In this document: in pieces, positions 2,688 through 4,592 of the stretch
Numbering within the stretch: position 1 is the first letter of the stretch
Layout of the letters: each line of letters starts with the position of its first letter
From: Hydrogenophaga sp.
GTDB lineage: Bacteria > Pseudomonadota > Gammaproteobacteria > Burkholderiales > Burkholderiaceae_C
Length of the DNA stretch: 64,000 bases
Assembly (NCBI RefSeq): GCF_025699295.1
Contig: NZ_JAILWB010000003.1
Coordinates: forward strand, 1-64,000
Direction: 5' to 3'
Made by a program: the position numbers and the translations under genes
Notes under the pieces: generated by a model
What the model was told of the DNA's origin: nothing
The model's database searches: none
Seen by the model: only the letters and a program-made list of their open reading frames with translations

Positions 2688-3269
2688 TCAGCTCGAGAAG
2701 CGGAACACCGCCGTGCTGGCCAGCAGATTGGGCCAGGTGCGGATTTCGCGGCCTTCGTGCAGGCCGAAGCTGTCTTCGATGGTCAGTCCATTGCGCCGCG
2801 CCAGCACCTCGAAGTCGGCATGCGTGCCGACACGGATGTTGGGCGTGTCATACCACTGGTAGGGCAGGCGCTTGGTCACTGGCATGCGCCCCTGCAGCAC
2901 GTGCAGGCGGTTCGGCCAGTGCGCGAAGTTCGGAAAGGCCACCACGCCCGCGCGACCCACGCGCGCGGTTTCGCGCAGCATGGTCTCCGCGTTGCGCAGG
3001 TGTTGCAGGGTATCGATCTGCAAGACAACATCGAAGGCGTCATCTTCGAACATGGTCAGCCCGTCTTCCAGGTTGAGCTGCAGCACGCTGACGCCGCGCC
3101 GCATGCAGGCCAGCACCTTGGCGTCGTCGATCTCCACACCGTAGCCACTGCACGCGCGAGTGGCCTGCAGATGCGCCAGCAGCGCACCGTCGCCGCAGCC
3201 CAGGTCCAGCACGCGCGAACCAGGCGGCACCAGGCGGGCGATGGACTCCATCACGGGTTTCTCGCTCAT
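2688..3269 (-). CDS. metW: MetW, methionine biosynthesis methyltransferase-fold protein
   Basis: MetW is a small class I SAM-dependent methyltransferase-fold protein commonly encoded with metX and reported to support its acyltransferase activity in methionine synthesis. The 193-residue product carries motif I as [12 protein letters not shown] near residues 19-30 and the acidic loop GYGVEIDD after it. [10 protein letters not shown] and [10 protein letters not shown] are typical MetW signatures. Its ATG overlaps the metX stop codon as ATGA, showing translational coupling in a metX-metW operon. Expression should fall under the SAM-II leader in front of metX. Confidence 0.95.
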
Positions 3270-4435
3270 GGCCGCGTCCCCCCGACGGTCTGTTCGAAAT
3301 AGGCCTGCACCGCATGCAGGTAACGCGGGTCGTCGAGCAGGAAGGCATCGTGGCCGTGCGGCGCGTCGATCTCGGCGTAGCTGACCTCGCGCCTGTTGTC
3401 GAGCAGGGCCCGGACGATCTCGCGGCTGCGCGCGGGCGAGAAGCGCCAGTCCGTTGTGAAGCTCACCAGCAAGAACCGAGCCCGGGCGCGCGCCAGTGCC
3501 GCCGTCAGGTTGCCGTCGAACGAGCGCGCGGGATCGAAATAGTCGAGCGCCCGGGTGATCAGCAGGTAGGTGTTGGCGTCGAAGTACTCGCTGAACTTGT
3601 CGCCCTGGTAGCGCAGGTAGCTTTCGATCTGGAACTCGACATCCTGCGTCGTGTAGCGGTAGGCCTGTTCGGCCACGGCGGCGGGGTCTTCGCCATCGGC
3701 CGAGCGCAGCGAGCGCCCGAACTTCTCGTTCATCACGTCGTCGCTGAGGTAGGTGATGTGGCCGATCATGCGGGCGATGCGCAGGCCGCGCCGGGGCAGC
3801 GTGCCCTCGCGCAGGTAGTGGCCGCCATGGAAGTCGGGATCGGTCACGATGGCGCGGCGCGCCACCTCGTTGAAGGCGATGTTTTCCGCCGTGAGATTGG
3901 GTGCGCTGGCGACCACCACCGCGTGGCGCACGCGCTCGGGGTACTGCAGGGTCCAACTGAGCGTCTGCATGCCGCCCAGGCTGCCACCCATGACGGCAGC
4001 CAGGGTCTCGATGCCCATCAGGTCCAGCAGCCGGGCCTGGGCATCGACCCAGTCCTCGACCGTGACCACTGGAAAGTCAGCCCCCCAGGGCGTGCCGGTG
4101 GCGGGGTTGACATGCGTCGGGCCGGTGGAGCCGAAGCACGAGCCCAGGTTGTTGACGCCAATGACGAACCAGCGGTCGGTGTCGACCGGTTTGCCAGGAC
4201 CGATCATGTTGTTCCACCAGCCCTCGCTGCGCGCCAGCGGCTGGCCGTGCGCGTCGGCATGCCAGCCCGCCACGTGGTGCGACGCATTGAGCGCGTGGCA
4301 GATCAGCACCGCGTTGGAGCGTTCGGCATTGAGGGTGCCATAGGTTTCCACCACCAGTTCGTAGGCAGGAAGCACGGCACCGGAGCGCAATGCGAGCGGT
4401 TCGGCGAAGTGAAAGGTTTGGGGCGTGACGATCAA
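3266..4435 (-). CDS. metX: MetX, homoserine O-acyltransferase
   Basis: MetX acylates homoserine with acetyl-CoA or succinyl-CoA, the first committed step of methionine synthesis. The 389-residue product is an alpha/beta hydrolase. The nucleophile is Ser152 in MGGSLGGMQ, with the aspartate in [10 protein letters not shown] and the histidine in [13 protein letters not shown] chose a TTG start at 4435, seven bases after AGGA, which gives [16 protein letters not shown], the expected N-terminus. An in-frame TTG at 4465 falls inside the T-tract of the leader terminator and is unlikely. The donor (acetyl or succinyl) cannot be assigned by eye. Transcription probably responds to SAM through the upstream riboswitch. 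Confidence 0.95.
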
Positions 4436-4466
4436 GGCCTTGTCCTGCGGGCGGCACCCGCCCAAT

Positions 4467-4500
4467 AAAAAAACCCGGCGCCGCCAAAAGCGAGACCGGG
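4467..4500 (-). terminator. Intrinsic terminator in the metX leader
   Basis: Read on the minus strand, CCCGG and CCGGG enclose a loop containing an inner CGC/GCG pair, followed by seven T residues. It lies between the SAM-II aptamer and the metX start codon, so it can only act as a regulated leader terminator. Its 5' arm can pair with the GGGGA at the aptamer 3' end (GGGA-GAT-TCCC), which would give a competing antiterminator. Confidence 0.8.
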
Positions 4501-4504
4501 AATC

Positions 4505-4556
4505 TCCCCTTTAGCGGCATTTTTAAAGCGCCCGCAATCTGGATCAAATCGGCGCT
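4505..4556 (-). promoter_or_regulatory. SAM-II (metA-type) riboswitch aptamer ahead of metXW
   Basis: On the minus strand a stem AGCGCC/GGCGCT encloses GATTTGATCCAGATTGC, and is followed by an A-rich stretch and CGCTAAAGGGGA. This order (P1 with a GAUUUNA...AUUGC loop, then the GCUAAA-GG 3' pseudoknot strand) matches the SAM-II consensus as I remember it. The aptamer lies about 70 bases before the metX start codon and is followed at once by an intrinsic terminator. This suggests premature termination when SAM is bound, through release of the terminator arm. The family is best known from alpha-proteobacteria. The assignment was made by eye and not by a covariance model. Confidence 0.82.
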
Positions 4557-4563
4557 GGGCACA

Positions 4564-4592
4564 AGTATAAGTTGAAGCACAAGGCATGTGCA
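4564..4592 (-). promoter_or_regulatory. Probable sigma-70 promoter of metX-metW
   Basis: On the minus strand TGCACA (four of six to the -35 consensus) is followed after 17 bases by TATACT (five of six to -10). Initiation about seven bases on would place the transcript start right before the riboswitch P1 stem, as expected for a short SAM-II leader. Confidence 0.55.

Follow-up and report, generated by a model that had tools for sequence, protein, structure and literature searches.

SAM-II riboswitches have been described as most common in Alpha-, Beta- and Gammaproteobacteria (PMC2704228). Bordetella bronchiseptica is listed among the organisms carrying them, putative terminators were noted in many SAM-II representatives, and a putative start site is in most cases situated a few nucleotides ahead of P1 (PMC1273637). 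SAM-II elements with terminators in beta-proteobacteria were reported in 2007, when the expression mechanisms were termed not yet experimentally established (PMC2258182); work on S. meliloti has followed (PMC9373788). A metXZ element was described in beta-proteobacteria in 2014, with a pseudoknot, a terminator and a suspected antiterminator in front of metXW or metZ (PMC4239095). An initial sequence-only reading of the locus presented here had regarded SAM-II with a terminator as unusual in a beta-proteobacterium. Since PMC2258182 and PMC1273637 report them, both parts of this surprise were already in print.

The window, i.e. the whole stretch of DNA analysed, comprises 64,000 nucleotides from Hydrogenophaga, a member of the Comamonadaceae (Burkholderiales, Betaproteobacteria). 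The claim that its minus strand carries a SAM-II aptamer was confirmed by the proposed covariance-model search, in which RF00521 matched above the gathering cut-off (Table 1). The E-value was 4.1e-6 when the window was scanned against all 4227 Rfam families, and this was the sole gathering-level match in the 64 kb. A genome-wide scan gave an E-value of 7.1e-8 and reported this match only, with no second RF00521 copy. The six pairs of P1 are all present as first read, and the CCCGG/CCGGG terminator with seven T residues does follow directly behind the aptamer. The wording on the loop was slightly loose: the GATTGC that was named is what the window has, whereas the Rfam consensus is GCUUGC. The leader of 97 nt folds at -44 kcal/mol (z -4.2), and none of 200 shuffled sequences reached an equally low energy. 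The SAM-II identity of this leader is thus well supported at the sequence level; the leader belongs to a known kind of element, for which SAM binding is predicted.

A single promoter-like site was found, with 7 nt from its end at 4564 to P1, which fits the remark on start-site positions in PMC1273637. Profile matches to both downstream open reading frames agree with the claim that the leader precedes metX-metW, and a methionine gene accordingly stands behind the RF00521 match. MetX passed the homoserine O-acetyltransferase model NF001209 as well, with a score above its cut-off. The TTG at 4435-4433 is the probable metX start, as the start codon used by relatives at this position is GTG or TTG. 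Several Hydrogenophaga leaders have, by eye, a hairpin of other sequence at the position equivalent to the small hairpin between T-run and metX.

Table 1. Features of the metX leader and its surroundings, with the related element before metK.
Feature	Position	Strand	Evidence
metW, ATG overlapping the metX stop	2688..3269	-	TIGR02081, 238.9 bits; start counted by hand
metX, homoserine O-acyltransferase, probable TTG start	3266..4435	-	NF047916 MetX_succinyl, 645 bits, cut-off 560
Small hairpin GGGCGG-GTG-CCGCCC between T-run and metX	4449..4463	-	fold of 31-nt tail, -13.4 kcal/mol
Intrinsic terminator CCCGG...CCGGG + T7	4467..4500	-	fold, -17 kcal/mol
Terminator arms CCCGG and CCGGG; T7	4500-4496 and 4478-4474; 4473-4467	-	sequence
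Predicted antiterminator hairpin, 4518-4501 with 4497-4480	4480..4518	-	lowest-energy fold; similar pairing in truncated leaders
SAM-II aptamer (RF00521 span)	4490..4565	-	42.1 bits, cut-off 36
Aptamer by own model R1	4502-4557	-	76.4 bits; window itself among the rows R1 was built from
P1 5' strand AGCGCC	4551..4556	-	sequence; pair counts over 109 sequences
P1 3' strand GGCGCT	4527..4532	-	sequence; pair counts over 109 sequences
GATTTG	4550-4545	-	sequence
TTGC	4537-4534	-	sequence
Pseudoknot 3' strand GCTAAAG, also part of predicted antiterminator	4509..4515	-	paired in lowest-energy fold; GCTAAA invariant in 109 sequences
Promoter-like TGCACA-17 nt-TATACT	4564..4592	-	consensus scan, 9/12 matches; 0.1 expected by shuffling
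SAM-II-like pseudoknot before metK	G000:C5:52332-52396 (same genome; L169, L197)	-	R1 match, pattern, covariation

For comparison we used the best 80 of 577 loci encoding a relative, all 80 obtained with one query and close kin; the nearest named metX loci in this set were mostly from Hydrogenophaga. An aptamer stands ahead of metX in 77 of these best 80 of 577 loci: 75 were found by a strict pattern, and two more (L085 and L107) have GATTTC replacing GATTTG. A lack of conservation upstream of metX in relatives, which the sequence-only reading had named as evidence against itself, is contradicted by these counts. In the same set, three loci as fetched, L089 (Serpentinimonas), L120 and L133, gave no match to the SAM-II patterns. 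Candidatus Fonsibacter is an alpha-proteobacterium, and L120, a short metagenome contig bearing that title, is therefore probably misassigned.

The window and 137 loci together yielded an alignment of 109 distinct aptamers. GATTT, TTGC and GCTAAA were invariant in 109/109 rows, an invariance that is partly built in because the pattern by which rows were chosen contained these blocks. The outer pair of P1 was changed on both sides in 31 of the 109 sequences and unpaired in 32, and the five inner pairs were nearly invariant, with a single double change (L037). The letters of the inner pseudoknot (UUGC with GC(U)AA) are present in the window and in all 109 rows, TTGC and GCTAAA again being part of the row-choosing pattern; these pairs hardly vary among the distinct sequences and hence give no covariation signal. 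The outer pseudoknot showed no covariation in the metX set, with a mean longest helix of 3.18 against 3.17 in permuted pairings. Of the covariation in P1 and pseudoknot that had been proposed as a check, variation at the outer P1 pair was found, but the inner P1 and pseudoknot pairs are nearly fixed and the outer pseudoknot showed no covariation. With invariance partly built in and inner pairs that barely vary, the pair counts say little.

We consider it highly probable, judging from sequence and folding models, that this SAM-II riboswitch shuts off metX-metW by transcription attenuation. Aptamer, terminator and gene order are read directly from the DNA, and the switching steps that we infer are the following. 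When SAM is scarce and polymerase stands between the terminator arms, GCCGCUAAAGG (4518-4508) would pair with CUUUUGGCGGC (4490-4480), the CTTTTGGCGG segment being the pairing partner of GCTAAAG, and this pairing would block the terminator and allow metX to be transcribed. With SAM bound, GCUAAAG would be held in the pseudoknot, so that the 5' arm CCCGG could join CCGGG in the terminator helix and transcription would stop at the T-run. The pseudoknot strand would in this way double as the 5' arm of the antiterminator, a concrete antiterminator prediction for the SAM-II class.

Folding of the window leader is consistent with these steps. The lowest-energy fold is a long hairpin and not the terminator, with GCCGCUAAAGG paired to CUUUUGGCGGC inside the terminator; the two structures are mutually exclusive, and the antiterminator fold is the more stable one (-38.2 kcal/mol vs. 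-31.3 kcal/mol with the pseudoknot strand kept single). For most relatives examined, the more stable of the two folds is the terminator, and the choice there would therefore have to be kinetic. A terminator scan taken by itself was near chance (1 found vs. 0.8 expected in shuffles). Across 78 leaders, the window and 77 from the best 80 of 577 loci, a script detected a hairpin with T-run in 67. Among the 11 that it missed, inspection by eye revealed a related hairpin whose T-run is interrupted in L072, L073, L075, L081 and L137, and a terminator of this kind is absent in L087, L090, L091, L093, L094 and L099 although the aptamer is kept. These six leaders possibly use another expression platform. 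As a separate observation, the leaders of L093, L094 and L099 carry CCGCAAGC, the complement of the aptamer's GCTTGCGG, and that of L087 carries GGCAAGC.

Pairing between pseudoknot strand and terminator was compared with several controls. The predicted duplex had a mean energy of -13.3 kcal/mol, compared to -7.2 with the inner region shuffled, and beat 95% of the shuffles in 57 of 69 leaders. Each leader's own pairing was also stronger than permuted ones (-13.3 vs. -11.1, sd 0.29, 0/10000), in a test that shared ancestry inflates. In lowest-energy folds of full-length leaders, the strand was paired downstream in 12/70, compared to 7.4 expected from shuffles, which is hardly any support. Leaders truncated immediately ahead of the last terminator arm, folded because RNA folds during its synthesis, were predicted to pair the strand downstream in 59/70 against 10.6 expected, or in 37/48 against 6.2 when identical cases were collapsed; 11/70 failed this test, which was picked after the full-length test had failed. 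When the strand was held unpaired, the terminator formed in 67 of 70 leaders. The folding programs ignore both pseudoknot and SAM. As read here, the truncated-leader and strand-held-single folds suggest that the switch is decided co-transcriptionally. Matched two-sided changes, GCTAAAT with ATTTTGGC in L132 and GCTAAAC with GTTTGGC in L080, point the same way, to a switch set during RNA synthesis. TTTAGC, the complement of GCTAAA, was seen in the terminator of at least seven loci (L029, L034, L037, L040, L042, L043 and L054) in a count, made by eye and without control, over 33 loci from further families of Burkholderiales. The earlier claim that the layout implies transcription termination gains support from these predictions and from the terminators of the relatives.

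The same folds bear on the main rival explanation, namely that a real aptamer regulates mainly translation and that the terminator is constitutive or minor. In its favour, full-length folds of most relatives examined do not prefer the antiterminator, and in S. meliloti a terminator was reported downstream of the translation-controlling SAM-II of metA (PMC9373788). The small hairpin of the window is also close to the presumed ribosome site. However, most leaders tested show complementarity between the pseudoknot strand and the inner part of the terminator, and 73 nt, terminator included, separate GCTAAAG from the TTG start. We regard mainly translational control as unlikely.

A second alternative is that the leader is not SAM-II at all and belongs to an RNA class of its own in beta-proteobacteria, the metXZ element as published. 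PMC4239095 reports SAM_alpha from Rhizobiales and Rhodobacterales alone and names metXZ as new in beta-proteobacteria, and many members, such as the Variovorax and Polaromonas loci L098 and L110, fall below the Rfam cut-off. Nevertheless, the window and other members exceed the RF00521 cut-off, the GATTT, TTGC and GCTAAA blocks are common to both, and the alignment between the window and RF00521 is end to end. The leaders, with about 100-205 nt from P1 to the start codon, showed by eye no second element conserved throughout the set. On the shared SAM-II blocks and the scores above cut-off, a separate class was judged very unlikely. With regard to chance resemblance or a decayed relic, the aptamer is short and the terminator scan alone is near chance, but the genome-wide E-value of 7.1e-8, the fold z of -4.2 and an aptamer at the same place in 77/80 metX loci (best 80 of 577) leave this reading hardly credible.

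The metXZ element is very probably this SAM-II riboswitch, since genes, lineage and layout agree and no other conserved element was seen in the leaders. We did not find this identification in print in the open-licence literature. It would give the orphan metXZ element a ligand. The SAM-II identity was likely missed because of the RF00521 cut-off. RF00521 matched at E 0.001 in 42 of 60 relatives and above the cut-off in 25; the corresponding numbers were 137 and 52 for 300 genomes of the order, and 111 and 51 for 200 genomes of the family, the multi-genome runs having used stricter filters by which some weak matches were lost. Model R1, built from the 109 aptamers, matched 180 of the same 200 family genomes, 149 with a best E <1e-13 and 31 weaker; its E-values are rough and some of the genomes tested supplied rows. 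Three genomes (G361, G363 and G411) had a weak RF00521 match and no R1 match. The Rfam cut-off thus misses many members in the family, and beta-proteobacterial annotation and published regulon maps are probably incomplete.

Model R1 produced a second match in the same genome (39.1 bits, G000:C5:52337-52395, minus strand), approximately 60 nt before metK. The consensus of these elements reads CGCC-GAGUUA (or GAUUUA) - GRRC - ACUUGCGG - GGCG - linker, optional hairpin - CCGCUAAAGCGUUC. A pattern derived from them matched 26 of the 200 family genomes, and the reversed pattern matched 2/200. In 25 of the 26 pattern loci metK lies 56-87 nt downstream on the same strand; the match in L184, with no metK beside it, was taken as chance. 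Over 25 same-family sequences 99.4% of the pair cells were standard, and two-sided changes occurred in 4 of 14 pairs, whereas slid registers gave at most one two-sided pair and shuffles reached four in 1/500. P1 covaries, and unlike in the metX set the outer pseudoknot covaries as well, in two of its four pairs. Model R2 matched 173/300 genomes of the order and 33/299 of the phylum (18 in the order, 11 in a single further family of the class), counts that are upper bounds because R2 also matches ordinary SAM-II at lower scores. Of the 33 loci fetched by R2, 27 have metK; it is absent in L204, L209, L220, L221, L222 and L228. The weaker R1 matches in 31 family genomes may be this metK relative. 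No Rfam 15 family matched the element's own strand at E up to 1 in ten loci scanned. A partial match of RF02483 (nucleolar RNA) to the opposite strand of L169 (24.2 bits vs. cut-off 100) was taken as chance.

We lean towards the view, based on these comparisons, that this widespread Burkholderiales metK pseudoknot, with no Rfam 15 match on its strand in the ten loci scanned, is a so far undescribed branch of the SAM-II fold that senses SAM, SAM being the obvious guess for its ligand. The element was not found in print in the open-licence literature, outside which a 2017 collection of 224 candidate RNAs falls. According to PMC4239095, beta-proteobacterial metK is not under any known methionine regulator, a gap that the metK relative would fill. 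If true, related RNAs would govern SAM synthesis in Burkholderiales at its entry, metX, as well as at its end, metK. As a side observation, a SAM-II aptamer followed by a metK-type SAM-II-like pseudoknot was seen in tandem in L015, L036, L058 and L204, and also in L037, where the second element runs close to an ATG. In L015, L036 and L058 the tandem precedes a gene starting MFDC or MYDC.

Compared with known systems, the leader has the P1, GAUUUG, UUGC and CGCUAAAG core of SAM-II (the metA motif, RF00521 SAM_alpha), likewise with a methionine gene downstream. It differs from RF00521 in being three letters shorter before UUGC, with a UUAAAAAU-type linker, and in outer pseudoknot pairs for which no covariation was found in the metX set. 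The order of promoter just before P1 and terminator behind the aptamer is that described for SAM-II in PMC1273637. The model of RF02424 (Bp2_287, a Burkholderia sRNA) matches the strand opposite SAM-II leaders, as in L043 (1601-1483, minus, 37.1 bits vs. cut-off 70), and similar opposite-strand matches were observed in L003, L034, L036, L039, L040 and L058, below the cut-off in every case; RF02424 may have been recorded from the wrong strand of a SAM-II leader. SAM-II of S. meliloti metZ likewise has a predicted SAM-induced terminator, in an alpha-proteobacterium and before a different gene (PMC9373788). The metXZ element was published as new and distinct from SAM_alpha, and our comparison with it is by genes, lineage and layout, as given in PMC4239095. 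It shares the metXW genes and the lineage (10/11 Comamonadaceae genomes in its Table 1), and has a pseudoknot followed by a terminator with poly-U.
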